DNA of 64,000 bases from Isoetes taiwanensis. Its lineage: Eukaryota > Streptophyta > Lycopodiopsida > Isoetales > Isoetaceae. Both the position numbers and the translations under genes were made by a program. Where the stretch lies: NCBI GenBank assembly GCA_021234155.1, contig JAJEKV010000028.1, positions 13,284,134 to 13,348,133 of the forward strand, in the 5' to 3' direction. The first letter of the stretch is position 1, and every line of letters begins with the position of its first letter. Positions 3,101-56,995 of this stretch are shown piece by piece. Under the pieces are notes generated by a model. The model saw nothing but the letters and a program-made list of their open reading frames with translations. It had not been told where the DNA came from and made no database searches.

Positions 3101-4996
3101 TTTCTGGGAAATTTCTCGACTAGAATTACAAGCTAATAACTGAAAGCAACACAAGATCAAGCATCATGGTTACCCGATACTCCTCTAGAGTCAGATTGAC
3201 CACACAAACGGTCCACCATGATTCTATAGGAAAATCCACAGGTTGAACAGGTAGCATTTCCTTGATTATGGATCTGTTCAGTTTCCACATAAGCTTCTGC
3301 AATCAGGGTTTCAAAATCGTCAGTTCTGCAGGCCAAGGGCAACTCTGGAAGCAAGTCATTCTTAATCATTAACTTAAGCTAGATGCTACTTATTGCACTC
3401 TGAACTTTCAAAGCTTTTTCTGGGTATCCTATATTTTGATGTAGCAACGTATTTTCTTTCTTTGCTTATGTTTTTTACAAATTGTATTTCATTTTCTTAT
3501 AATTAAAAGCATGGCATTAATGCTTTGGCATTATTTTAGCGATGACTGAGCGAGATTCTCACCTTTGCCCTGCACTTATTCATTATGTCAATAAACTCGT
3601 TTCTACCAACTCCTGTGACCCTCATAGCATCAGCTGCACTGAAGTTTGGAATACTATCATAGGCCTTCTCTGCAAATTAAATCATATGTATATAATGCAA
3701 GATTGCACAGGACTTGAATTATTGACATGAAAGATGCACAGTACCACTCTTCATAACTTCGTACACCATATCACAGTAGTAACGAAATGGTGTTATCCTC
3801 ATAATGCGGCAAACATTCTCTGATAAATGGTAAGGATATAACTGCAAAACAGAAAGAGCTTTATCTATTACAAGAAGTAACAATAAAAAGTTCTAATGCC
3901 CTCATTACTATTATAGTAAGAGCTAAATCTATAACAAGAAGTAGAAAAGACTCAGCATATTAACAAACAGCAAAACTTGGTATATTTCTAAGTTAACAAA
4001 CAGAAAAACTTGGTATATTCCTAAGTTGAACATTTTACGTCGTTTTACACATGCATTTCCTTCCCAAAAAGTTGATCTACAGTATAGGTATTTATTCCTG
4101 ATTATCTCTGTGTCAAGTTCTTTTCTATGCTACTAAAAGTATTTATATTGTTCTTCAAAATGACAGTATGATTCAGAGGAAAGACACAGTGATATAAAAT
4201 GCTCCTTTCTCTACATGTCAGAAACGGATGGCCAAACAAACTCAAAACTGGAAAAACTATGAGAACAACCCAAAGGAAGTATATTTTGATAGAAAAATCT
4301 TGAGAGGCTGGAATGCACACCGCAAGATTCTTACGTAGGTAACGCATTAGATCTTCATAATATTCATTCTCCTTACAAGCAGTCCTTGCAAAACAGTCAC
4401 TCCATTTGAATCGCCTCTTGATACAATACTCCTTGACTCTGGATCAAAGGTAACAACTCAAAGTACTTAATAAGGGACTTGCAATTACAAGAAGAAAACT
4501 AGCAACAATAAAATCAAATGACAGTGTTCAGAGCATACAAGGAACAAAGCAGATCTTACAAAATATGCAACAAGTAAGCAATCAGAAACATATTTGACTA
4601 CTCAGTTTCTCCTTCCAGAACACATATTTTAATAACACCTAATCAACAAGACACTGCAGGGCAACTGTCTGCAAAGAGTGAGACTCTCTGTAAAGAGGTA
4701 TAAGCAGGAAAGTAAAAGTAAAACCCTCTGCAAAGAGATACAAAATTTGATGAGTCCAATGCAACGCATCTCCATGCCCATTGCCTAATATTATATGGAA
4801 CAAGTGAACATGTAGGGAGAACCTCGTCTGTCTTTTGCATGAGTGAAAGAGCAAAGATGGGGATGTACTTCCTGTAATAGTCCTCCTTGGATGAAAGAAA
4901 AACTTTTAGTCGTTTGGGTAGACTTTCCCATGTGGCTTCCTCCTGAATAGCCTTAATAAGTATCTGCTCCTCCACATTTGAAGCTAATCGATGCAT
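111..4996 (-). CDS. FAM91A1: FAM91 family protein, complete ten-exon gene
   Basis: Spliced gene; exons on the minus strand are 4996-4869, 4438-4321, 3841-3745, 3669-3563, 3296-3174, 2844-2691, 2591-2531, 2457-2084, 1993-430 and 360-111. All junctions are GT-AG and in phase, giving 991 residues. Human FAM91A1 helps WDR11 and TBC1D23 in vesicle capture at the trans-Golgi; the same role here is inference. Recognisable stretches in family order are [17 protein letters not shown] and [20 protein letters not shown] (N-terminal domain), [15 protein letters not shown], then LRCESLAGL in the C-terminal domain, ending with a [12 protein letters not shown] block near the C-terminus. The start ATG at 4996 follows a stop in its own frame and opens directly into the conserved region. 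For the last intron the acceptor at 361 is preferred over one at 391, which would leave a 39-nt intron. No frameshift or internal stop is seen. It is the best-preserved gene in the window. Confidence 0.93.
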
Positions 4997-7688
4997 TTCC
5001 TCACTAAATCACAATCAATCCCGTGTTCAGAATAAATAATCATAAAATAACTGTAGCATTATCTACACTTTGTTGATTGCCCAAAACGAAAATAACTCCA
5101 AGACAAGGTTAGATCTCAAGTGTTTTTGCCAGATTATGCTGATCGAGCTAGATGCAGCTACATCCAACAGTTTCTTACCCAGAAGAGTTGTTTTTATTTG
5201 CTATAAAGATAAAACAAGGGTTAGGGGGATGCGGAACCTGAAAGGTGAAGCTCCAAACCAAATGTGATGTATCTGCTTCCCGTCAATTACTATTGAATCA
5301 CGCTCCAAACAATGCGCGAGAACAGCCAGAACCCATTATTCTGATACCTTGAAGCATGGAGCACGGCAGTGCAACAAAATTAAGGATTAAATTAGTATGA
5401 TTGAGAGAGATCTCGATCCCTGTACGCAATGCTCGAAGCAACCATTTCAATGTTGCATTCTGTGGAGTCAAGGGCCGCACCAAATTTTCCCATTTCAGTC
5501 ACGAGATTGTTGCCACGTTGGTGCCATAAAGGCGCCACGTCATTTTAACTTTTATTTATTTATTGAGGATCATTGCAACTAGGCCTATTAATTTTTCAGG
5601 GCCATACCCCAGAGGTGAAACCTAAGGAGCAATATAGCAGGGTTGTCATTGAAGAGGGTTTGGATCATGGAAAGGTCTTCCTTCTCTGTGATTATATTCT
5701 AGGCTCTAATCCATCTTTTCAAGTCAAAATGTGCTCATTTTAAGTTCTTTGTCCAAAAGAATGGCACTTATTAAGGTAATGCTCGAGCAAGATGGGAATT
5801 GGGTGTTGATTTGGTTTTAGGCAATCCTATAAAAATATTTGGCACCTAAGGCTCCTTGATGTTCTAAATCACCATGCCCTCTATGACTTTTCCTTTTGCA
5901 ACATTCAACCATAAAAATTGGTGTCCACCAGCTCTTATTGCCACTACATATGTATTGAATCTACCAAGAACACTTAAAATGTATGAATAACCCTTATTAG
6001 GAGCCAAATTAATGTATGATAGATTGAGAAGCGCCTATAACCGGGCTTTCTGGTTCAATTGGGACACGCCTAGGTCTTGCCACAATGATCAACACCATAA
6101 CTAGTATATATTGTTGTGGTGGGGTGGGGGTTGTGCCCATGCCCTCCAACATTTATCAAAATATATATAAGCAAAGCAAATGATGCCCTAAGCCTATTTG
6201 TTAGAAATTACCATACTAAGAGATTGTTATGGGGTCTTTCCTAAGACAAGAGTGTTCGTGACAAGTCTAGCCCTTTACGTGTAAATAGGACAGGCTTCTA
6301 CTTTCGTCCACCCTCTCAGGAGAGGATCAACCATGTAACTCTAAAGGCAGGACCTTGGGCTGACGCTCACAGCAAAGCCAAAGGTGCTGCCCCAAGGGTC
6401 TAGATATCGCTAACAATCACCTTGACAACCCAATCTGAGTATGGTCCTTGATATCCTAAGAATAACAGAGGATCGGTACCCCTTGAACTTACACTAGGAT
6501 ATAGTTCACTAGGGAGAGAATATGCATTTTCAGTAGACAGGCCAAATCAGGAACTACTCCTATCAAGCTTCGCCCTTCAACCTGGTGCTAATATTGGCTC
6601 CCTCGTTTTAAAGATAGCTCGAGCTAATCACTGTGAGTTGCTCACAAGAATCACGTAATTAGGTCGAACTAATCAAATGAAAATGACATGGCACGAGACG
6701 ATAGCTAGAAGCACTCTAATGCAATGATGTTTTCACATGTTTTATTGCACATCTATTGCGTGCATGTGTTTGGTGATCAGCTCAAACTAATTACACATTT
6801 CCAAGAATCGTGCCAAGGTTCTTCCCTTACTTATTGCATCAGAGGGTAAGCTTCTGGGAAAAACTTTGTGTCAACTGTGATTAGCTCAAGCTAAAAATCC
6901 TACCTCGTGAAGCATGTGGGATACACTCACGTGTACAGGTCGGATTTGCAGGTGTGTGAACACACGATCGGGGATTGCAAAAGAACATGCCACACATTGC
7001 ATAAAGAACACGCCACATAAGCACCACATCATGTGGTTAGCTCGAGCTAATCACGCAATTCGCTCCCAAGAATTTGAAGATTCACTTGAGCAAATCATGT
7101 TGGTGCCCCGATTAAAACTGTGGACACAATAAAGTGTGTGCCTTCCACGTGACATACCATAACATAGTGGCAGCCACAGCATGGCTCCCACATCAAACTA
7201 GAAGATGGCTAAGCCAACTCCAATAATGTTTGGCATATGCCTAACCCTCCAAGAGAAATATAAAGATCACAAATGGGCTTAGCTAAATAGGTTTAATATG
7301 GCCTTTAGACTAGGAGCATACATTTTGGCCTAGGACTTAACTAGCTTAGAGTTCCTTTTTTGCATGCATGCATGATGAACGTTGCAACATTCACATCAAG
7401 ATTAAGACAAAGCTTAAGAATAATCAAGTCCATGTCAAAATCCACCACCACAAATCATTAACAAGGAACATCATACCTCATAGATTTCTAAAATGTATTG
7501 AACTTGAATAACCCCAACCCCCACCTTAGAAACATTAGTTATGACATCTAGGCCTCTTCTTTGAAGGCAGGTGCATAACACCACGATAAAATAAATTTCA
7601 TGACTATAAAAATATCACTTTATTAAATAGTGAGCATATGTACAAATCGACCAACGTTCGTTCATAATGATGCACAAAACAATATTCT
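4997..7688. other. Gene-free stretch between FAM91 and the kinase
   Basis: No convincing coding region on either strand. The first few hundred bases lie upstream of FAM91 and should hold its promoter and 5' leader; an AG just before the start (about 5005) could be the acceptor of a 5'-UTR intron. From about 6.2 kb the sequence has a dispersed-repeat look, with recurring copies of a palindromic motif described separately. Confidence 0.5.
6615..7054. repeat. Recurring palindromic motif around TTAGCTCGAGCTAA
   Basis: A near-perfect 22-bp palindrome (GTGGTTAGCTCGAGCTAATCAC) lies at 7033-7054. Related copies lie at 6615-6631 (TAGCTCGAGCTAATCAC), 6773-6794 (GTGATCAGCTCAAACTAATT..) and 6877-6894 (GTGATTAGCTCAAGCTAA), with a weaker one near 6660. 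They are irregularly spaced in otherwise unremarkable DNA. Function unknown; this could be part of a repeat family. Confidence 0.55.
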
Positions 7689-14160: not shown

Positions 14161-16018
14161 GGTTGTATATGAAGATTGGGAGACTAATGCGTTCTGTATG
14201 AATGGGTGATGTTAAATTGCAATGTGTTGAGGTTATATATATTAGATTTTTTATGTATATATTTAATAATGGGAAATTGAATAATAATTTGGAAACCCAA
14301 TGTATTCTGTTTAATGTATGGTAAGACTTGGTTGTATATTATGTTGGATTTTAGCATTTTTATTTTATTTAATAAAATCTTTGATTTATCTATGTATTGT
14401 ATTGGATTAACATCTTGAATTGTAATTTTCTGTCGGTTTTGATTCATGTAGTTGTCGTGTTGTACAGACAGTTGGAATGTATGTGGAATCCATTTTGCTT
14501 TTGCCAGATTTTGTTGGTATAATTTGCCTTCGTTGTCCTAGAAATAGACATGAAATTAGATAAGTATTGTTCAATTGCTTTGTTACACATGATATTTGTT
14601 CTACCCGAGGTTCTTATTTCATGCAGTTCACTAAAGGATTTTTGTAGTTTCAGCAGAGAGTCCCAACGACTTTCTCAAATTTTTATGAATTTAATACACT
14701 TTTCTCTGGTTGCCTAGAAGTGCATGCAGCACTATAATTGTCTCAATGCGGCCAACTTATTTCAAGATTTCAGAGCAAAAAATGTAGATATCTTTAAACT
14801 GCAAGTCCAATGATAAAAGCAGAACCCAGTTTTTTAACATAGGAAATCATGGCCATTCCAGACCAACAAACAGCAATCCTAATTCCAATGGCACGACAGA
14901 TGTTTCCTTTTAATTTCTGGTGATATAGACATTCAATAATTACATGGCAGATCCAGATCATCCTGTATCTAAATCGTTCTTTTGACAGTAACATAATGCA
15001 TCCTTCCCTTCTATCTGGAGCTTAAAACTTTGTTTGCATTTCCAGATACTGAGCAGAACCCATAACCTTTTAATGTTTCCAGGAGAACTTCAAGGAGTTG
15101 ATGCTGACCTGAGCAAGACAGATGTCATTGTGCTGATGATTCAGATTCTCGACAAGTTAAAACATGTTCTACATCTAACAACAATATGCTCTTTTCATCC
15201 TCTTGATTCAGGAGGCTAAACATTATTTCTAACTTATGACTGAACTGTTGATTCTAAAATTTCAGCAATCAATGAAGGCTAACTTATGGTCTTCTAAGGT
15301 GGTAGATTCAGCTGGTTTTCCAGCATTGGCACTCATCAACATTGCAACCCAGAAGGCCTCGAGCCATGCAAATAATGACACAGATGGATGCATTGTAGCA
15401 TTGTAGATGAACATTGCAGATAATATTGCAAGAGCACATGAAAACCTATAGCAAGAATGTTGGTTAAAAAGCCCAAAGTATAAGCCAGGCTTTTCCAAAC
15501 TTGATTATCTGGTAGTATATTCAAGTATGTATAAAAAACAAATTGACTGACTATGACTGTGGATCAATGACATGGTTTTGAAACTCTAGTTGCAGCGAAA
15601 AAGATAGTCTTCTTACACTCAATGTTTTGTTCAAATGATAATAGGTTCGTAATGCTGCATGGACACTTGTCTTCAAAGAAGGATAATATTTCCATGGGTG
15701 CATAGCCAGATTCTTCTTCATGTAAAGTATATAAAACTAAATGATTCATTTTTCCACTTACATTTACTTCTTTAGTAAATTATTCGAGAAGTGTATGTAG
15801 CTGGTTAAATCTGGACATAGAGATATAAAGATAACATATGCAATGCGTCTTAAATTCCTATATGTAGGATTATGCCCTTTAATGTTCACGGGAGAACTTG
15901 ATGGAATTCATGCTGATCTGAGCTTATAGGTAAATAATATAAAGCTCGATGGATGTAAATAATATAAAGCTCAATGGATGCAAGAAGCAAAATTGTGAGA
16001 AGTGAAGATTGCTTCTAG
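14161..16018. other. Gene-free stretch
   Basis: Very AT-rich at 14.2-14.5 kb. Two similar short segments (around 15078-15110 and 15888-15925, both reading GGAGAACTT..GATG..TGAGC) suggest duplicated debris, perhaps connected with the ATPase remnant that follows. No supported gene. Confidence 0.35.
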
Positions 16019-20795: not shown

Positions 20796-21030
20796 TATTT
20801 AAGCAAGAATTAATTAATTAGAGAAATTTGGAATTCCCGTTTAGCATGAAATAGGTTCTAGGTTAGCCATAAAGTGCAGAAACTGATAGCAAGTGAGTAA
20901 AAGTTGGCGTTTTTTAGTACAAGTTCTACCAATCAATCGCAGTCTTTCAGAAATATAGTTTTTACTGCCCATGCAAAGGTCCATTGTGGGTAAAAGGTAG
21001 TAGTATGGAATGCTCGATGTTCTCTCAAGG

Positions 21031-21044
21031 ATCGCGAACGCGAT
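21031..21044. promoter_or_regulatory. Variant palindrome ATCGCGAACGCGAT
   Basis: Matches ATCGCGNNCGCGAT, with AA in place of GG-CC symmetry at the centre. It lies about 270 bp downstream of the ParB/methyltransferase-like stop and shares both 6-bp arms with the other two sites. Confidence 0.5.
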
Positions 21045-21180
21045 CTTTCGCAGCTGAAAACAGACAAAACAATGGCCTTTTTATTAACACCATATGAGAG
21101 CATTATGTACTCCAAATGAGAAGTGGAGTAGGCACATCACACACATTGCACTATTTTAAGCTATGTATTTGCTACAGAGG

Positions 21181-21194
21181 ATCGCGGCCGCGAT
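21181..21194. promoter_or_regulatory. Second copy of ATCGCGGCCGCGAT
   Basis: Identical to the intronic palindrome at 23287. It lies about 120 bp downstream of the stop codon of the ParB/methyltransferase-like gene. Confidence 0.6.
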
Positions 21195-21309
21195 TATTTT
21201 CAACAGTAAACATGCACCAAGTAATAATAAAGACACAAAGGTAAAGTAAATTAAATTCCTGAAGCAAAACTTTCCATTGATGGATGTACTGTACAATAGG
21301 GATGCAGTA

Positions 21310-24300
21310 TCATTCAAATGATTGTGTTTCAGAAACACTATCAGGGATCACACCCAATTCATTGGCTATACGGATTACATGTGCTCTACCCAATTTCATA
21401 GCTTGTGTTGTGTCCATCTCTGAATAACCTGTGACATCCGGAATTTGCACGTCCATGGCCTTTGCCAAGAGCTCCACATGTGGATCAGGTTTCTCACTTT
21501 CACTATCTCCTGCATGGTATAAATTCTTTCTCCGACTCGGTAGCACTCTCGTCTGGATGAAAGGTTTGCAGCTTCTTGCAGGCGCCCTGATGCTCTTGTG
21601 TCCCAACACGCTCATCTTGGTTTGTTTCCATGTGGTCCACGCCCATATATTCAAACCTAGGTTGGCCTGTCAAGAATGGCATGTACCCATCAAGCTTCTG
21701 GTTTAGTGCCTCTAGTTTTTGAAAAGTAGGTTCGAGCTCATGAATACCTTTTTTCGTCGCTTCCAGCAATCGCTTTGTTTCCTGCATTCTCTCTTCGTAG
21801 CTTTTAGCATCGAGGTTATAATGGCATCCAACCCAGATATATCTGTCTGTTGGGTAATATTGATATCGGGCAGCAAAGGATTGGCCTCTGCATTCTCTGC
21901 TTTCTCCTCTTCTTCAGATCCCCCAGTAGTTTGGCGGGCCATTTTCTCAAGCGTTTCTAAGAAGGACCTCAGGAAATGGCACACTTTACCAGAACTTTCA
22001 AAGGCCACGCTCTTTTTCCCTTGCATTAGAGCGACACGAGAAGCTGTCCCAGCCGAAAAATAATCCAGGACGCAACCGTCAGTGGGCACCAGCTGATCAA
22101 CAATATAATAGGCATATGAGGTTTTCAGCTAGCATTTCAATACAAGATCTCCTTCCATTGCTGCCCATTTATATCTCGGTTTGCCTGTAAAAAGAGTTTG
22201 GAATTTCTTTTTTATCTTTTCATCGGCATCCTCATTTCCTGTAAGCGGCATTGGAGGCAATGGTGTTTGCTTCGGAGCCTTGTCGTGTGGAGATAGACGA
22301 AGCTCCAGCTTAGGTTGCACAGGTGCTACACGAGTGTCACTCCTGTTAATGCACATATGACTAATATAATACTGATGCTCTTTCACCTTTCTTTTGCTCT
22401 CCCAGCATACTTCTTCATAAGAACCCAAAGACAGATGACCCCTTCCCTGAATCTGCTTCTGACTGTACATGCAATTCGGCAAATTCACAAAGCGCATGAT
22501 AACAACCAAATGATAAACTTTTGCAGTGGTTGTGGTGGCTATCCTTGTAAAAAGGTCTGTATATTTCTTGCAATCCCATATCTTGTTGATCCCTCGGATG
22601 TCAATGAATATCAAAGTGGCGTTCTCGGAAACTGTGGAGGATGTAGGGATGCCATCCTTTGTCACTACCAGCACAATGTTTTTCTTTTCCTTTCTTTTTC
22701 TAGCCTCTTCTGGCTTTAGAATATTTCTGATTGGCTCCAAGAAGGCCACAGGCAGGTTGCCTAGTGTATGGTCCTTGTTATAATTTGCCTTCACGTACTC
22801 TGTATCAGTATCTGATATATCTAGTATTCTCTGCTTTGTAAAATCAGGAAAAGACTGAAGCAATTCCTCGAAGCTATCGAAATCACTTTGTAGCAAATTA
22901 GAGGCATAGGATAATATTTCACGCCTCATAAAAGTCAGGGTTCTAATGTCAGTTGCCCGTTGCTTGCAATCAAACCTGCCGCTATACCCTGACTGCACCT
23001 TTAGATACGTCTTGCCTTCCATAATTTCATCTAGCAACTGTGCCACCTCTGCATTCGACATACCTCGAAGGAACCGTAGCCAGGTCTTGTTAAAGAAGTC
23101 CTTGCTTGGCTTATCTGGAAACTCACCATGGTCATCACTGAGCTTACGATTCACCCACAACTTCCATTAATTTCTTGAAAACTTTTTCCTCCATAAAGAT
23201 GAATTGTTTTTCATCTTTAAGGTCCTGCACTTTCAAAGTGGTGGTTGCAATTTCATGGAAGTCCTGCAGAAACAAAGGTCGTCAATATCGCGGCCGCGAT
23301 GTTGGTGAGTAGAAAATGAATAACTACCTTCCAAGCTGAACTCGTTGCAGTCCCTATAGGTCCTTGAGGAGGACAGCCATTAGCCTTGTGCTGATGACGA
23401 AGTTGTTGCAGCTTTTCTATTAGAGGCTCTCTGTAGACGGTGTTTGCAATCACTTCGTTGCATTGAATGCTCAACTCTATGTATTCTTTGTCTGTCAGAT
23501 TTCCGTTGAGCACTCTCGATCTTCTTCTAGCATAAACTTTAGCAAATTCTAATTGCTGCTCTAACTGCCCGACGACCGAACAAAGAAGCTGTGTCGCGCA
23601 AATACTGTGATTGCCGGATATAATGTAAAAATTTTTGCCCTTCAGATCCTCTGGATTGCTCCATGTCACCCTCTTCCTAAAAAATGGATAACGATCAAGT
23701 CAAACCTAAATAACGAAAGTCCAAAAGAAAAACAAGCAATCACCTCGTAATGGGGTCAAATGGTACGACGTCAGCAGGCGTGAGGACCTCTGTTGGGTAT
23801 GTCTTGAAGCTTTTAACCAGTATTTGAACATGGTCATTTGAGCGCATTCGGTGTGTCAGGTTTGCCGGTGTTGGTTCACAATCAAAAATAGAAATCTTAG
23901 TAAACCAGTTAACCCCTAAGGGGTAGAACCGTTTAAACTGTTCAAGCTTTTGAGTAGTCTGCTCTGCCATCTTGCGTTCCTCTTCCAGATTGAACTTCAA
24001 TTCGATTGGAATGGCAGGTGATGTCAATAACTTAGCAGAAGAGACTTCAAGGGGGGGTTTGAGAATTGCTGGGTTGTGGGCTTTCCTCAGTGTTCAGATT
24101 ACGAAGGTTTATTTTGAAAGTAGTACTTTTCGTAGGAATGAAGGCACCAGAAGTAGAGCTATCTGGGCCTTTTATAGCAAGTGGAATAGTAGGGTTAACA
24201 ATACCGGAGGGGTTCAAGGTGGATTGTGGTTCTTCAACATGTATCTTTGCTGCTGAAGGCTCTCCTAAAGTAGCTATTCCTAGGATGGGTCCTATGATAG

Positions 24301-24334
24301 GTATATACTGGCCGAAGTGAAGTGGTGTTCTCAT
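21310..24334 (-). pseudogene. Decayed ParB-like / beta-class DNA methyltransferase-like gene
   Basis: Spliced minus-strand gene with at least four frameshifts and one in-frame stop. The order is a Pro/Ser/Thr-rich leader (24334-24050); a ParB/sulfiredoxin-like domain (24045-23744 joined to 23676-23328, with RSNDHVQILVKSF then FYIISGNHSICATQ); a linker (23263-22700); and a methyltransferase-like region to 21900 followed by a coiled-coil tail. In the methyltransferase region, LIFIDIRGINKIWD sits where motif IV (DPPY) is expected and VLDYFSAGTASRVAL at motif I. Motif IV before motif I is the beta-class order of N4-cytosine/N6-adenine methyltransferases. Introns of 67 and 64 nt have GT-AG ends. 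Breaks: frameshifts near 24050 (a seven-C run), 23157, 21805 and 21530, and TAG near 22131. Motif IV has lost PPY, so this copy cannot be active. The ParB and methyltransferase calls rest on motif reading only. Domains that bind and modify DNA suggest a mobile or horizontally acquired origin, which is inference. Confidence 0.6.
23287..23300. promoter_or_regulatory. 14-bp palindrome ATCGCGGCCGCGAT inside an intron
   Basis: A perfect palindrome within the 64-nt intron of the ParB/methyltransferase-like gene. The identical 14-mer recurs at 21181-21194 and a two-base variant (ATCGCGAACGCGAT) at 21031-21044, both downstream of the stop. In AT-rich surroundings such a GC-rich 14-mer should be rare. 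It could be a binding or modification site; that is inference. Confidence 0.6.
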
Positions 24335-24687: not shown

Positions 24688-25012
24688 AAGACTCGGAGGC
24701 TCCAGGGCCACGCCGAGAAAGAAACAACAGCCGACCAATCGGGAACCATCCGCAGAATGACCATCGCGGGAAAAAACAACTGATTAGTGCTGCCTCGGAG
24801 GCTACAGCGCCACGCCGAGAAAAAACAATAAATATGATCTCGGAGGCAACAGCGCCACGCCGAGAGAAAACATGAATAATAAATATTGACTCAAAGGCTA
24901 CAAAGCCACACCGAGAGAAAACATGAATGAATAAATAAAATACTAGTGCCATGCCGAGAAAGAGTAAACCAATAAGTATGCCTCAAAGGCTGCAAAGCCA
25001 CGCTGAGGAAAT
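24688..25012. repeat. Minisatellite of imperfect units that can fold (CTCGG...CCGAG)
   Basis: Six to seven degenerate copies of CTCGGAGGCTACAGCGCCAC followed by GCCGAG, separated by variable A-rich spacers. Each unit can pair CTCGG with CCGAG and AGGC/GGC with GCC, giving a short hairpin. Later copies change to CTCAAAGGC...CCGAG and lose part of the stem. On the minus strand it reads as a repeated FSRRGAVASE, which looks incidental. Confidence 0.75.
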
Positions 25013-25216
25013 AAAGAATGCAAAATAAAGGACATAGAAAAGGAAATAACAAACACGATCAAATGAAAAAACCATCAAGGGAGGGAGGGTGAGGGAAACT
25101 GATAGGATAGAAAAGAAGGAGAAATCTAGCTCAAGAGAACGCCGATGATAGAACAATGAAGAGAGGCTGAATAAATAGGAGGAGTGACAAAGGGACGTCC
25201 CCATCTAAGGAATGTC

Positions 25217-25242
25217 GGTTCTATTGCTGTCGCAATAGAACC
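25217..25242. repeat. Perfect 11-bp inverted repeat hairpin
   Basis: GGTTCTATTGC, a TGTC loop, then GCAATAGAACC. An imperfect version lies at about 36280-36310 within a 140-bp segment that matches this locus in the opposite orientation, so this is part of a dispersed repeat family. Confidence 0.8.
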
Positions 25243-25299
25243 GTAGCATTCCTAGGATGGGTCCTATGATAGGTATATACTGGCCGATAGAAGAGGAAC

Positions 25300-29523: not shown

Positions 29524-29692
29524 CACAACAAGAAAAGGGTCATTTAGCGACGCCAATAGCGACGTCGGCGGCGACGTCGCTGGCGACGCCCGACGCTGCC
29601 GCCGCTCGCCGCGTCGCGCAGACGCTGGCGGCGCTATGCAGACGCCGCTCACCAGACGCGTGACGTGACGTCGCAGACAGACGCCGCGATGG

Positions 29693-29980
29693 CACGTGAC
29701 ACGTGAAATATACACGTGGAATATACACGTGGAACATCACCAAAATCCACGCGTGCCGTAAAAGCCACGTGTATACGTCGCATGCGACGTGACACGTGGA
29801 ACAGACACGTGGAATATACACGTGGAAAATACACGTGGAATATACACGCAGCGTAAAAAGCCACGCGGTATACGCCGCGATGCGACGTGACACGGAATAT
29901 ACACGCGGAAAAAACGAAAATCCACAGATAGAAAATCCCGTGGCAAAAAAAAAGCCACGTGGATACGTCGCATGCGACGT
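29693..29980. repeat. Array of ten CACGTG boxes and two 16-bp palindromes
   Basis: CACGTG occurs at 29693, 29700, 29713, 29726, 29766, 29793, 29806, 29819, 29832 and 29956, often 13 bp apart within GGAATATACACGTGGAA. The perfect palindrome ACGTCGCATGCGACGT lies at 29775-29790 and 29965-29980, with a degenerate form near 29870. CACTA subterminal repeats normally bind the element's transposase. CACGTG is also the core G-box recognised by plant bZIP and bHLH factors. Confidence 0.85.
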
Positions 29981-31590: not shown

Positions 31591-31753
31591 ACGAGTTGAA
31601 GGAGTTTTCAATGGTAAATAAAAACTACCACATTTTAGGAATGTTAAATATTGCTGACATGAAAGCCAGCTAGATACCGCGCTGGAGAGAAAATTGAACA
31701 GTATTGGTAGATTCAATTAAAAAAGAAATTGCATTGGTAGCTTTTTCCGAGCT

Positions 31754-33061
31754 ATGGCTCCATGGAAGTCTAGAAGTATTCCTCGCCGGGATTACCCCAA
31801 GCTTCGGGAGCTCGAATCTTCCAAGTGGATGACTCAAGCAGGTTTGTGGGATTTTTTCAACCTAGAACTGGACAATATAGATGTCAATCTTGTTTCCCAG
31901 TTTGTCCCGACCTTTGAAGATGCTAATGCAACTGGAAGCCTGAATGGAGTGCAGTTACAGCTTACTACGGAGCTTGTTACCCAGGTTTTGAAGCTTCCCT
32001 ACAGTTTGATCTCCGTTGATCCCACCTTTAAACTTGGAAAATCAGAGATAAGTGCTAAGTTTGGTCTTAATGCCTTAACCAAATGCGGTTATAAGATATC
32101 TATGGCAAAGAGTGAATCCTTCGGTGAGCTTCTTCAATTTCTAGTGGATCGGTTATGTCTGAGGCACGAGATGCAGTATGCAAATGATGATATCATCGTG
32201 GCTGCTTTTGAAGTTTCTAAAGGGAATACTTTAAATTGGTCTGACTATGTCATTGACAAGATCAAGAAAGAGATTGCATGCATTAAACGAGATTCTAGAA
32301 AGACAATATATTATGGGCAGCATCTTATGACCATCATCAATTTCTGTTTGCAAAGGAACGCTGTCACTAGTTGCCAGAAGACTATTGGTCTAGTTGAGCA
32401 AGATGAAGGGGGGAAAAAGAAGAGGAAGATGGACGAGATCTTGATGAATGATATAGACCCATTGAAACAGGAGAAGGTTCTATTGGCAAGGCAGGAACAA
32501 CATGTCACAGAATGTATTACTGAAGTGACCATGTTTATGAGACGGGGTTCATGCTTGCAGATACAATTAGGACAGAGTGTGCAGAAAGTAGGAAATGCTT
32601 TAGAAGAATGCAAGCACCAACTTTTGTATGGCAGCAGATTGCATGATAATGCATTAGCCACCTCAGAAGTAGGATTAGGATTGGTAAAAAACACTGAAAC
32701 TGAGGATATAGAAAATGGAAAGCAAGTAGATGTTCCAATCATGGATCGCACAGATGAGTCTAAAATGGTGCAGATCATTCCGTTGGATAAGGATGCAGAG
32801 CTAGAGAATGTCAAAAAGAGGAGGATCGAGTTGGGAGAAATTTTAACGCAGAAGCAAAACGTTATAAAAAATCAGGAGAGTTTGGTTGCTCGGTGGGTTG
32901 CTGAGGGAAGCTTTTTTACCATAAGTATTACAGTCCTTCAGAGTAAGGTAGGGAACATGAGAGGAACTCTAGAAGCATGCAAGGAGTCTTTAGAAAATGT
33001 AAAACAATATCTTGCAGATCTAAGGAAGTTTCTGAGAGAGTTCTGCTGGACGCTTGACTGA
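31754..33061 (+). CDS. Intact intronless ORF of unknown function, 435 aa
   Basis: One uninterrupted frame from the ATG at 31754 to a TGA at 33059. Residues 1-200 look globular: WMTQAGLWDFFNLELDNIDV, LTTELVTQVLKLP, then LNWSDYVIDKIKKEI and YYGQHLMTIINFCLQ. The pattern resembles, in layout only, N-terminal domains of repeat-encoded or plant-mobile-domain proteins, in which a W-x-FF start is followed by a V..VLKLP helix. Residues 215-230 are a basic GGKKKRKMDE patch, a plausible nuclear localisation signal, and the second half is predicted coiled coil. No catalytic motif, signal peptide or membrane segment is visible. Being intact and intronless in a decayed neighbourhood, it is either young (mobile) or under selection. 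A cluster of heat-shock-element-like sites lies upstream. Confidence 0.7.
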   Translation: MAPWKSRSIPRRDYPKLRELESSKWMTQAGLWDFFNLELDNIDVNLVSQFVPTFEDANATGSLNGVQLQLTTELVTQVLKLPYSLISVDPTFKLGKSEISAKFGLNALTKCGYKISMAKSESFGELLQFLVDRLCLRHEMQYANDDIIVAAFEVSKGNTLNWSDYVIDKIKKEIACIKRDSRKTIYYGQHLMTIINFCLQRNAVTSCQKTIGLVEQDEGGKKKRKMDEILMNDIDPLKQEKVLLARQEQHVTECITEVTMFMRRGSCLQIQLGQSVQKVGNALEECKHQLLYGSRLHDNALATSEVGLGLVKNTETEDIENGKQVDVPIMDRTDESKMVQIIPLDKDAELENVKKRRIELGEILTQKQNVIKNQESLVARWVAEGSFFTISITVLQSKVGNMRGTLEACKESLENVKQYLADLRKFLREFCWTLD

Positions 33062-36279: not shown

Positions 36280-36425
36280 GTTCTATGGCGAAGCATTCGC
36301 AATAAAACCGACATTCTTTGGCAAGGCAAGGGGTGTTGCTATTTTGGGACCGTCTATATGCTCTTCATTTTTAGTTTTTCCTTGATCGGCGTTCTCTTGA
36401 GCTAGTTTTCTCTACTCTATTTTGT
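36280..36425 (-). repeat. Inverted, diverged copy of the 25.13-25.24 kb repeat
   Basis: AATAAAACCGACATTCTTTG and, further on, GATCGGCGTTCTCTTGAGCT match the reverse complement of sequence at 25.13-25.24 kb. The imperfect hairpin GGTTCTATGGCGAA..TTCGCAATAAAACC corresponds to the perfect hairpin at 25217-25242. Confidence 0.7.
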
Positions 36426-37926: not shown

Positions 37927-40159
37927 ATGGTTGATAGGAAGAGGAAGTTTGATGAAGCTATGAATGCATCTGATGGGTTTATGCCTGAAGCTAAGAGAGT
38001 TAGATTAGATGAATGGGCAGTGATTAAAGGCTGGATGGTGTGTGAGGATTTGGAATACACTAGAGATGATGATATGGTGTCTGAATTGGAATCTGAAGAT
38101 GGTGCCAAATTGGAAAATTCTGTAGATGGCGGTATTGATTTATCTTTGTCAGTAGTTGCAGATCTCCAGTAGTTGTAGATTCTCCAGTTGGTGATGGTGG
38201 AATTGGAGAAATTTATTTATTTATTTTATTTATTTGTCTAGTGCTCACTTAGGACCTTGAAAGGCCATGGAGCAAATATTTACAACTTTAACAAAAATGT
38301 ACGGTGTGTATCCGCCCTGTTCATATACTCTCCTACAAAAAATGGTTCCAGATTTAACAATGTATAAAAACTGTCTACGTATACCTCGAACTCTTCCCTT
38401 ATATGCTCATATGCTGTGCAGTGCAAAAAGGTGTGGGCTTCATTCTCCACTTCATCGCCACATATCTTATATTTCCTGTCTTCTATGGGAATGTTAAACC
38501 ATCTGTCTACTTCAATCTCTAGCCGATGAGAGCTGGTTCGGTATCTAGCCATTACTCGTTTATATGCCTTTGGAATATCTGAGCACATATAAGCTTGGCT
38601 TTTGTACTCTCTCATGTCACTTACTGTATTTCTGTAATAAGACATTTTGCTACCCGGGGCAGCCCATAAACTGTCTACTGCAAGTTTTTCCAGCAAGGTT
38701 CTAGCTTCATTTTTATCAGTAGGCCAGTTTGCTTCCGACAACCCCCATCTTTTTGCCCAATTCCAGAAATCTCTTAGCCACCCTTGTTCTGAATTTGCCA
38801 TAGCTTGATAAGAGATTCGAGTTGACTCTTGTTCTTGTAGCCTGTTCATAAAGTTTACAGTTTGATAAAGAGCTTCAAGCTCGAGAGGTAGCAACCCAAC
38901 TTCTGCTAACATTATTGCATACGGAGTTTGAGCTTTGATCCCAAGCTCTTCTCGTATAAACATTTTTTGCACGGATTCTACTTGACTCCATAGCTTAGCC
39001 GGACAACCGGGTCCCCACACTGGTGTACCATATAACAGCACCTTTGCACAAGAGTCTTGAAAAGCGTTTTTTTCAGCTCCCAATCAATTAACGAAGCTTT
39101 ATCACATCTTGTTAGCATACTGTATAAGGCTGATTTTCCACCCGTGACTCTTCTTTTCACGCAATCTTTCCAGCTGTAATTTGAAGCAAAATCAATGCCC
39201 AAATATTTGTAGCATTCTACTGTTTCAAGAGCTTGACCCTGATATAAGAAATCTGGTCTTTCCCTGGTACCAAAAACCATAATTTTGGACTTAGCTATGT
39301 TTACCTTCATCCCCTTTGCAATGCAGAATAATTCCAGCCCGTGCAAATGTTTCTGCAATACTTGCTTTTTGTTGGCAAGCAATACAATATCATCTGCGTA
39401 TAACAACAACTGAATAAGACAGTTACCTAGTTGTGTGCCCTGTAATGATTGGTCTTTGAGCCATTCTTCCAGTTCGTCTATGAAGATGCCAAACAGGGTT
39501 GGCGATAATGGGCAGCCTTGGCGTACTCCGACCGTGCTTCTCACTAGTGTGCTCAAATCTGTTGAGATTTTAATCAGAACTTCAGAATATAACTGGGCTA
39601 TGGCTGCTCTGATTTCTTCAGGAACCCCTAGCTGCACCATCCTCTCGCTTAGCTTGTCTCTTGGAACGGAGTCAAATGCTTTGGCGAAATCTATAAATGC
39701 TACAAACAGAGTTGCATTCGGATGTCTAGCTTTCTCCACCAATACTCTGAGTGCAAGAGCATGATCCAACGTACTATGTCCTTTCCTAAAACCAGCTTGG
39801 CATGGAGAGCGTTTATCATTTCCTTCTGCCCACAAACTAAGCTTAGATTCCAACAGGCTGCCCAAATTTTTTGCAAAAGTACTCCCAATAAGAATTGTTC
39901 TGTAATTTGATATCACTCTCTTATCACCTGCTTTGTGTATTGGATGAACCCTGTTTATGTTCCAATTATCTGGCAAACCATGCCTAATCCCTTCATTTAT
40001 CAAATTGAACGTGAAGATTGTGGGATCGTAGTTGTGGTTATGTGCACCTGTTGTCTGTGTATTGTTCTTGGGAAAGAGACAGATGAATTTGGTAGATGTA
40101 AGAAATGCTTGAAGTGTTTTGGAGTTCCTGATGGAGATGTAGTTGTGGATATTGAGTAG
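37927..40159 (+). pseudogene. Small Cys-rich gene split by a LINE insertion
   Basis: The ATG at 37927 opens MVDRKRKFDEAMNASDGFMP, a basic nuclear-signal-like start, followed by an acidic middle (VSELESEDGAKLE). After 38213 the sequence is interrupted by a minus-strand LINE and resumes at about 40003 with EREDCGIVVVVMCTCCLCIV and GRCKKCLKCFG, ending in a stop at 40157-40159. A paralogue at 45.05-45.35 kb has the two parts joined without the LINE, which proves the interruption. A frameshift near 38160 precedes the LINE. The Cys cluster (CTCCLC...CKKCLKC) may bind metal. Family unknown; the intact product would be roughly 150 residues. Confidence 0.7.
38214..40002 (-). mobile_element. 5'-truncated LINE (non-LTR retrotransposon) with near-intact reverse transcriptase
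   Basis: Two minus-strand frames, 40002-38978 and 39083-38280, are joined by a single-base shift in a seven-A run near 39070. Reverse-transcriptase blocks in order are AGFRKGHSTLDHAL, FIDFAKAFDSVPR (catalytic Asp), GVRQGCPLSPTLFGIFIDEL, and LLLYADDIVLLA (catalytic YADD). A C-terminal Cys/His segment (YKICGDEVENEAHTFLHC) follows. The 3' tail is an (ATTT)n-type microsatellite rather than pure poly(A). A probable AAATT target duplication lies at 38209-38213 and 40003-40007. The endonuclease and N-terminal part are missing. Few lesions suggest a fairly recent insertion. Confidence 0.9.
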
Positions 40160-55235: not shown

Positions 55236-56995
55236 TTACATATACGGCAATACTTGTGATATGATAACTTTCAATGCATGCCAGTATGGTCTGCAGCTGT
55301 CTGCCTTAATGAACCTCAGTACTTCAAATGGGAGCTGATTTCTTTTATCATACCTTAAGATTGAAAAAAGTCCTCTGTCTCTGTCTAAAACCTGTATGGT
55401 GATATTCAGAAAATTACACTTGTATCCATACCTCATTGGACCATCAGTTTTGTACTCCGTTTCATCCTTCATACCTAAATGGTGCATATTGTATATTGTG
55501 GTTTCTGATTCCTGATTAAAAAACTCGTCAATGTCATTAGCATTTAACATCATAAGGTCATCCACGTACCTAGCAGCATTGTCAAACCTCTTTATATCTT
55601 TGAATCTTCCATCATGGGCAAGTTTAAGCATGAATCTAAGTTCGTACCATGCAAGGTAGAGATTACACCAAGCAGGACTACAGGAGAATCCCATAGGTAT
55701 GCCTTTTTCTGTCGCCATATATCCTGCCCCAATTTTAAATAACAGTGTGCTAACAGCCATCCATTAGCCTCTTTGAATTTATTTTTATCTACTACTCTCC
55801 AACAACTACTGTCCATGTCTTTTTTTATTAGTCTCACCTATTTTACTTCAAAGGAATCAGCTTTTTCTTTTATGAGCATATGTAATAGTTTCTGGTCTTT
55901 TCTCATATATTCCCATGTGACTTCGATAATGTCGTTCATAATCTCAATGATACCATCATCTCCAAATAACGGCATATTTTCGTAGCACTTCATGATATCA
56001 GCTGCAAATACACTATTTATTTTAAATGGTAGATTTAATACCACATCATATGAAGAGTTAACCATCCATGAAGCATTTATCTTTGTCTTGTTAAATAACC
56101 TGTATGGGGCTGTTTGCCATAGGCATATATTTGGCCATAATTCAATAATGTTGTTAAGCACTGTAGTAATCCATTGTGCAATGCGTACATAGATCGAATC
56201 ATAAGCATTTGTTAACCGCCTGTAATCAGCTTTATGAGCTTTGTAACTAGCCATAAGGTATGGTAGTTTTTCCACATCATTCTGTTCTTTTCCCAACAGC
56301 TCATAAATTATAGTGTTGCACATGCTTTTAATCTGTTCTGGGTTGTACTTGGTTTTCTCAAAGTCTGGACCTTCAAGTCTTTTCCTTGTCATTTCTAGGA
56401 TATGCTTTTTGCATATAAATCTAGGGTTATTATTGGCCTTATCCAATCCAGATATAAAGAAATTTCGGACTAGCCAATCCAGGTTCTTTTTTCACCTGTT
56501 GATCATCCCATAAAAACTTTTATTGGGTAGTTTTTTCTTCACCAAGATTATTTCCTCATGAGCATACTGTAATAACATCATGTTAATATTTGTTGTATCC
56601 GTGTCTGACAGGTCCATGGTGTCATATTTATGGACTTCCCAAAACTGTTGACAAAGTTTGAGAAAATCTTCTCTAAAACTTTGTATGCTAAGACTGCAAT
56701 CAGGGATGTGGTTTAAACCTTTGGCAAATGCCTCCCTCAACTTAGTACAATGGATAATCATTAAATCCGTTGTTCTAACATGCCCAATGCTAGGGTCAAT
56801 ATATTTAAGCATGTTTGGATTACTACATGGACATTTAATGTCCAAACCTTCAGCAAATAACAGATTTGGTCTGTAAATTTTGTCTTTAATCTGTTCTATA
56901 TATCTCCAGGCAAATGTAGTACTATCCATAAGCTGTTTACCTCTTTCCTGTAAAGCTTCATACCAGGCCAAATATTTTCCTGATGTCGATCTCAT
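55236..56995 (-). mobile_element. Decayed reverse-transcriptase element, Penelope/TERT-like
   Basis: A single frame from 56995 to about 55750 is broken by TGA at 56492 and TAG at 55838. A frameshift near 55750 then leads into 55760-55236. Order of motifs: a Cys pair (KCPCSNP), GHVRTTDLMII and LREAFAKGLNHIP; LPYLMASYKAHKADYRRLTN; palm block A with catalytic Asp (FAADIMKCYENMP); block B (GIPMGFSCSPAWCNLYLAWY); catalytic RYVDDLMMLN; then the C-terminal helices shared with the fragment at 29.2 kb. Block B (IPMG..C.P...NL.L..YE) and RY.DD..LN resemble Penelope-like elements rather than LINE or LTR reverse transcriptases. No GIY-YIG endonuclease was identified. Confidence 0.7.

Follow-up and report, generated by a model that had tools for sequence, protein, structure and literature searches.

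The stretch of DNA considered here, called the window, covers 64,000 nucleotides of the lycopod Isoetes taiwanensis (GenBank assembly GCA_021234155.1, contig JAJEKV010000028.1, positions 13,284,134 to 13,348,133 of the forward strand); unless gene orientation is mentioned, coordinates are those of the window. On its minus strand, positions 20801 to 24278 hold a decayed copy, truncated on its 5' side, of a Sola-like DNA transposon, and within it the remains of a three-exon gene for a protein with a ParB-like box and a half that resembles beta-class DNA methyltransferases. The explanation of the locus towards which we lean is that this copy is a dead fragment of a Sola-like element whose ParB-like protein recognises palindromes carried by the element itself.

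The limits of the copy come from a blastn comparison with 27 loci, which represent 24 distinct genomic copies. Homology stops at 20796-20803 in 10 loci (8 copies), the exact end, 20801, being fixed from the GCTT terminus of relatives, and none of the 27 loci shows homology past 24278; in the relative L242, the corresponding position falls inside the open frame of exon 1, some 219 codons from its beginning. The copy stops there and does not contain the first part of exon 1, the intergenic region and the DUF7869 gene found in longer relatives: what the window holds is a dead remnant, cut short on its 5' side, of a Sola-like DNA transposon of about 10.2 kilobases (kb). Its right terminal inverted repeat lies at 20801-20824 and reads TCTCTAATTAATTAATTCTTGCTT in gene orientation; relatives have the same terminus and, in four elements that are complete, it forms with the left end an imperfect inverted repeat of about 24 base pairs (bp).

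What remains of the gene, all on the minus strand, is the end of exon 1 (23744-24278, including the helix RSNDHVQILVKSF), intron 1 (23677-23743, 67 bp), exon 2 (23328-23676), intron 2 (23264-23327, 64 bp, with a palindromic site inside it) and exon 3 (21310-23263), exons 1 and 2 having also been compared with relatives. Both introns are of the GT-AG type and join the frames exactly: exon 1 ends at 23744, exon 2 runs from 23676 to 23328, and exon 3 starts from 23263. The position of intron 1 is shared with three full gene models of relatives, and GT...AG bounds intron 2 at the same place in all 20 relatives that were fetched. Exon 3 is interrupted by frame changes and by an in-frame TAG stop at 22129-22131; the frame changes of the copy fall within about 24047-24093 (in exon 1), 23144-23166, 21712-21913 and 21503-21669. 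At 345 amino acids, the open frame 22129-23166 is longer than any found in 40 simulated windows, whose longest frames had a median of 153 and reached at most 220. The first-pass annotation, made from the letters of the window, had described a decayed gene with two short GT-AG introns; both points hold, and the peptides that it quoted are present on the minus strand.

A 46-bp direct repeat (98%) lies at 24270-24315 and 25243-25287, and the break at 24278 falls inside its first copy. Since the second copy, about 970 bp away, sits in sequence that is not common to the compared relatives, the truncation and the local duplication may, as this suggests, come from one event.

The host assembly, 1.66 Gb in 1110 contigs, was searched with the 345-amino-acid frame as query: at least 117 scored matches were found, window included, at 59-100% protein identity, so that the copy is not the lone relic that it had been taken for. 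Twenty matches were taken as 10-kb stretches, selected for long open frames and for a spread of identities, not at random. Exon 3 is open over about 600-670 amino acids in several of these relatives, and full gene models were obtained from three of the six copies tried, with open frames of about 1160-1190 codons: 1185 in L242, 1162 in L249 (1157 with the conserved acceptor) and 1189 in L252, where the model is the second-ranked one, with the conserved intron 2. These lengths run from stop to stop, with start codons unset. The intact relatives envisaged by the annotation are thus present in the same genome. The ratio of nonsynonymous to synonymous substitution rates (dN/dS) is 0.28, 0.33, 0.34, 0.38 and 0.42 in five close pairs, six further pairs being saturated in dS, and for the 345-codon frame of the window it is 0.12 and 0.11 against two relatives. 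Such values suggest a gene under purifying selection.

The left ends of four copies, taken from their upstream stretches, give four complete elements of 10,145 to 10,368 bp. In all four, the ends are inverted, of the type AAGCATGATTTCATTAATT, imperfect and about 24 bp long, and the element is flanked by perfect 4-bp target duplications (TAAG, TATG, AATT and AAAG). The two genes are divergent, a DUF7869 gene on one strand and the three-exon ParB-methyltransferase-like gene on the other. The domain DUF7869 (PF25273), probably the catalytic domain of Sola transposases, is found in three of the four pieces opposite the ParB-like gene, with E-values from 1e-42 to 4e-37, and its protein is presumably the element's transposase. 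One point speaks against the assignment: the fourth piece, a shorter frame, shows no domain. A published account gives Sola elements a 4-bp target-site duplication and terminal inverted repeats of 11 to 1124 bp, and places them in the moss Physcomitrella (PMC10741241). We consider it very probable that the element is a Sola-like transposon carrying this gene, and the earlier suggestion of a transposon-borne gene with introns holds. In the window itself, three of the six distinct frames of 16.0-30.9 kb, translated across stops and compared with Pfam, gave no transposase row.

The element also carries a short palindrome. In the window copy, ATCGCGGCCGCGAT is found inside intron 2, at 23287-23300, where it is conserved in relatives, and again at 21181-21194 in the 3' flank of the gene, where ATCGCGAACGCGAT lies at 21031-21044; a window scan located these sites, and the blastn extent puts both flanking ones inside the element. 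ATCGCGNNCGCGAT occurs three times in the window, all in the transposon copy, for an expected number of 0.02 with one mismatch allowed. No cluster of three copies of a 6-2-6 palindrome within 3 kb appeared in 300 simulated windows; the real window has one other such cluster, at 29.6-30.0 kb, with half-site CGTCGC (29575-29980, containing two perfect ACGTCGCATGCGACGT and local repeats). Across relatives, the conserved word is ATCGC-N4-GCGAT, which has no occurrence in the 60.5 kb of the window outside the copy. The four complete elements, 41,044 bp in total, contain 24 sites, and their 38,956 bp of flank contain none; 59 other permutations of the half-site letters yield at most 2 sites each, with a mean of 0.08. 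The whole genome contains 2,244 instances of the 12-base form, compared with 9 of the reversed control.

Counted with fixed intervals, the 20 fetched copies hold 116 sites. Of these, 72 lie upstream of exon 1; the 3' flank accounts for 18 and intron 2 for 17. A further 3 fall in the nominal intron 1, and 6 in what is nominally exon 1, although one or more of the six (that of L259) really belongs to intron 1. Exons 2 and 3 of these copies contain no site, nor do the 72 kb beyond position 6400. On the 5' side a site is present in 15 of the 20 copies, in intron 2 in 17, and in the 3' flank in 10; in the three copies for which the whole gene could be modelled, all 16 sites fall outside the three exons. 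In four related copies (L253, L254, L258 and L259), one more palindrome lies close to where intron 1 begins, at positions 3391-3414 in gene orientation. In four others (L246, L247, L248 and L250), palindromes come in runs with a 34-bp step upstream of exon 1, at about 1900-2300 in gene orientation, some of the sites carrying one mismatch. A step of 34 bp is about three helical turns, so that the sites of a run would be presented on one face of the double helix. A word that is missing from exons 2 and 3 but maintained between the genes, in introns and in 3' DNA, in part as arrays, points to a function in DNA recognition, not in coding or splicing.

There is also the possibility that the palindrome is kept merely by riding along with recent copies, or through the splicing of intron 2. 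Its presence in that intron in most copies is what one would expect. However, when 21 sequences of intron 2 are compared, window included, the ten core columns have a conservation of 0.98, against 0.75 for the central four and 0.68 for the other 47 columns; the word also stands in the 34-bp arrays upstream of exon 1; and the three sites of the window have unrelated flanks. We regard this explanation as very improbable.

A second alternative makes the palindromes binding sites of the DUF7869 transposase, the ParB-methyltransferase-like protein having some other role. Transposases commonly bind repeated subterminal motifs, and many of the palindromes are found near the two gene starts, in the DNA that separates these, and in the 3' flank. 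Against this, palindromes also occur in intron 2, the first 4.3 kb or so at the transposase end of the four elements contain none, and the arrays adjoin exon 1 of the ParB-like gene. We judge the alternative unlikely.

We now turn to the protein. In the window copy, the ParB-like box FYIISGNHSICATQ lies at 23589-23630; the segment LIFIDIRGINKIWD, in the order expected of motif IV and without DPPY, at 22573-22614; and a motif-I-like segment, VLDYFSAGTASRVAL, at 22027-22071, all on the minus strand. The first-pass annotation had identified these three segments with a ParB-like pattern and with motifs IV and I of a beta-class methyltransferase. With a set of 97 beta-class methyltransferase pieces of phages and viral contigs, the motif-I piece was equalled by 4 of 5000 shuffles, and it ranks first among the 736 open frames of at least 40 amino acids in the window (E 0.12). 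The ParB box was matched in score by 203 of 5000 shuffles, or by 225 of 5000 with a second profile. The motif-IV profile lends no support to LIFIDIRGINKIWD (2720 of 5000 shuffles as good); another match to it, at 14447-14674 (E 0.023), was dropped, its alignment being without the motif. In the profile searches with this copy, the sole row fitting in place is MTase_II of PADLOC, on the motif-I stretch, at E 0.012; a Csn2 row in exon 2 (E 0.022) does not fit in place and was rejected. AlphaFold2, run on the exon-3 piece of the window alone, was uninformative, with a mean predicted local distance difference test score of 34.

The relatives allow a comparison of profile with profile, in which the resemblance becomes clearer. 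The exon-3 alignment comprises 18 of the 20 fetched copies, two having been dropped for frames of less than 420 amino acids. A family profile of exon 3, built from 15 copies, matches the beta-class C-terminal profile with an hhalign probability of 88% and a score of 43.5, compared with a maximum of 28.2 in 100 column shuffles, and the register is right: a half that would bind S-adenosylmethionine (SAM), placed towards the C-terminus in the beta-class order, is thus what the family profile shows. Against the methyltransferase profile of the phage fusion proteins the score is 37.3, for a null maximum of 29.4. With hmmsearch, the best copy reaches 13.6 bits, compared with at most 6.8 in 2700 shuffles; of the 18 copies, 13 are equalled by at most one of the 2700 shuffles, four by three and one by twenty. 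Motif I has the form [VI][LI]DFFSxGTASRV in 16 of the 18 copies, the other two being out of frame at that place. Scans of six exon-3 proteins put PF01555 at motif I in two of them, below the cut-off (E 0.045 and 0.15), and phrog_3008, 'DNA methyltransferase', at motif I in one (E 0.029); a PDB scan finds RsrI methylase at motif I, only at E 1.1 and in row 60.

For the ParB-like box, a family profile was built from nine spliced copies preselected for the family's own form of the box. It scores 25.0 with a phage ParB profile, the maximum of 100 controls being 19.9, and 20.6 with a second ParB profile, for a null maximum of 19.1. The box is seen in 14 of 20 relatives, picked for an in-frame SGNHS, and, as in phage ParB-methyltransferase proteins, a G-x-H box (IISGNHS) follows a helix.

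Several observations weigh against reading these resemblances as homology, and would suit an unrelated transposon accessory protein in which the likeness to ParB and to methyltransferases is a matter of chance motifs. Pfam, PHROGs, NCBIfam and PDB gave nothing significant with the window copy, nor did the Pfam scan give a ParBc row for its exon 1 and exon 2 pieces. For the window, and for the exon-1 frames and exon-3 proteins of relatives that were scanned, the models of Pfam, NCBIfam and PHROGs show no acceptable match to either domain, and PF02195, the ParBc family, is without a row for the exon-1 frames of three relatives. No relatives of the conceptual protein or its parts were found in protein databases, by tblastn of phages or in a scan of viral contigs, and the first phage ParB-methyltransferase profiles did no better on the single window copy than on shuffles. 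The same scans produce rows that are apparently due to chance and have comparable or better E-values, for instance Cas9_PI at E 0.0025 and, in PDB, a cytochrome c555 trimer at E 0.0008, and the ParB match spans only 15-16 columns around IISGNHS. On the other side, the beta-class match of the family beats all 100 column shuffles, at the right place; the rows of PF01555, phrog_3008 and MTase_II, each of them weak, share one register; and the same combination of genes, with the same strand arrangement, has been published for a Sola element (PMC12477816). Chance motifs are, in our estimate, quite unlikely. On sequence comparison, the C-terminal half is probably derived from a methyltransferase, and the box is likely to be ParB-like; that the protein combines the two we hold to be probable. 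What the annotation had seen at both places is weak in the window copy and gains from the family profiles.

The catalytic motifs are another matter. At the place of motif IV, all 18 aligned copies have [IV]F[IV]D[IMVF]R, and none has the pattern (D/S/N)PP(Y/F/W); the family profile scores 16.8 with the motif-IV profile, inside the null. None of the 16 copies in frame at motif I has FxGxG, FSxGT standing there instead. Both absences count against a plain methyltransferase: since DPPY is missing from 18 of 18 copies and motif I reads FSxGT, not FxGxG, ordinary catalysis is doubtful. The reading of LIFIDIRGINKIWD as motif IV keeps the expected order and nothing more, the intact relatives do not carry the DPPY predicted for them, and the active N4 or N6 methyltransferase proposed at first is unsupported. 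The annotation had coupled the absence of DPPY and FxGxG with membership of another fold: the motifs are indeed absent from the relatives, and the beta-class match does not indicate another fold.

The nearest parallel by description is Sola1-1_Ec32, a Sola-type transposon of the brown alga Ectocarpus with a protein of ParB and methyltransferase type (PMC12477816); green and red algae are cited there for a like combination. The combination, which the annotation thought might be new to eukaryotes, has thus been reported before. Both elements are large and of Sola type, and in each the accessory gene and the transposase gene run on opposite strands, provided that DUF7869 marks the transposase here. 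The proteins are of similar size, 1104 amino acids in Ectocarpus and about 1160-1190 codons in Isoetes, and by description both have a ParB-like domain and one of N4/N6-methyltransferase type. They differ in that the host here is a plant, the element measures 10.2 kb instead of 21.5 kb, DPPY is absent, and a palindrome is conserved, none being mentioned for the Ectocarpus element in the excerpts consulted. The Ectocarpus protein is predicted to make N4-methylcytosine or N6-methyladenine, and it has been proposed that algal transposons with ParB-methyltransferase proteins bind DNA of their own and modify it (PMC12477816).

That prediction invites the idea that the Isoetes protein is still an active DNA methyltransferase acting on the palindromes, with a diverged catalytic motif. 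In its favour, besides the Ectocarpus precedent, the SAM-binding half is kept as FSxGTASRV in 16 of 18 copies, dN/dS is below 0.43 in the measurable pairs, and a defined short target word exists, with its 2,244 sites. However, no copy among the 18 has a DPPY-like motif at the place of motif IV, and the motif-IV profile score stays within its null. The protein may methylate the word, but the missing DPPY counts against this, and we hold it to be unlikely.

Other known systems resemble this one in part. In 36 phage ParB-methyltransferase fusion proteins, 31 of them with DPPY, the order is also a ParB-like box, then a methyltransferase, with motif I near the C-terminus, and the ISGNH form of the box is present in L074; most of these proteins, however, have about 390-480 amino acids, less than half the length of the plant family, which has neither DPPY nor a motif I of the GSGST form. 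The bacterial ParB-parS partition systems similarly join a ParB-type domain to short palindromic sites on the element itself, but the sequence of parS differs, and no curated ParB match was obtained here in the pieces scanned. VANC, of the Arabidopsis VANDAL transposons, is believed to bind short words in the non-coding DNA of its element and to oppose silencing: there too a transposon protein would act on words repeated in its own non-coding DNA, though protein family and element superfamily are different. Titles and beginnings of abstracts in the literature searched revealed neither such an element in a land plant nor a target word; works cited for green and red algae may cover either.

We conjecture that the ParB-like protein recognises the ATCGC-N4-GCGAT palindromes, as bacterial ParB recognises parS, and would thereby label or coat its own transposon, the methyltransferase-like half serving as a SAM- or DNA-binding module or as a non-canonical modifier. 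That the protein binds the palindromes seems to us fairly probable, on the strength of their co-occurrence. Two points tell against it: this co-occurrence is the only link, so that binding might instead be due to the transposase or to a host protein, and the 2,244 sites are placed in elements for the fetched copies alone. As to the purpose of binding, a first guess, by analogy with VANC, is that the element would be shielded from host silencing, a suggestion that we make tentatively; a second is that the promoters of the two divergent genes would be autoregulated. We give about an even chance to a partition-like self-recognition, in which a ParB-like protein with a catalytically altered, methyltransferase-derived half, and a dedicated 14-bp palindrome planted thousands of times in the non-coding DNA of the element's own copies, would serve to label or protect the element inside the nucleus of the host.

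The neighbourhood of the copy contains other features. At 24692-25013, a 32-bp repeat (CTCGGAGGCTACAGCGCCACGCCGAGAAA type) is present five times in imperfect form, with start-to-start spacings of 45-102 bp. Related stretches, 11 kb apart and inverted, are found at 25119-25227 and 36299-36412 (38 nucleotides at 87%, 21 at 90%); this pair was considered for the ends of the element and dropped, as related copies have other termini. Between its two members lies an open frame of 446 amino acids (31721-33061), and the pair could be another element. A reverse transcriptase domain, PF00078, lies at 38978-40159 (E 5e-34), and a weak one at 55236-55763 (E 7e-4). Host genes in the window include a FAM91 gene and a protein kinase. 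A scan of 18-28 kb with Rfam found no match at the gathering threshold.

What is new here is a candidate target palindrome for a ParB-methyltransferase-like transposon protein. The excerpts of the Ectocarpus account name no target (PMC12477816); with a likely target word visible in the sequence, self-recognition by a eukaryotic transposon becomes directly testable. Because DPPY is absent from all 18 aligned copies, the family suggests, as far as sequences can tell, a bacterial-type DNA-modifying enzyme that may have been turned into something else and would still be under purifying selection.

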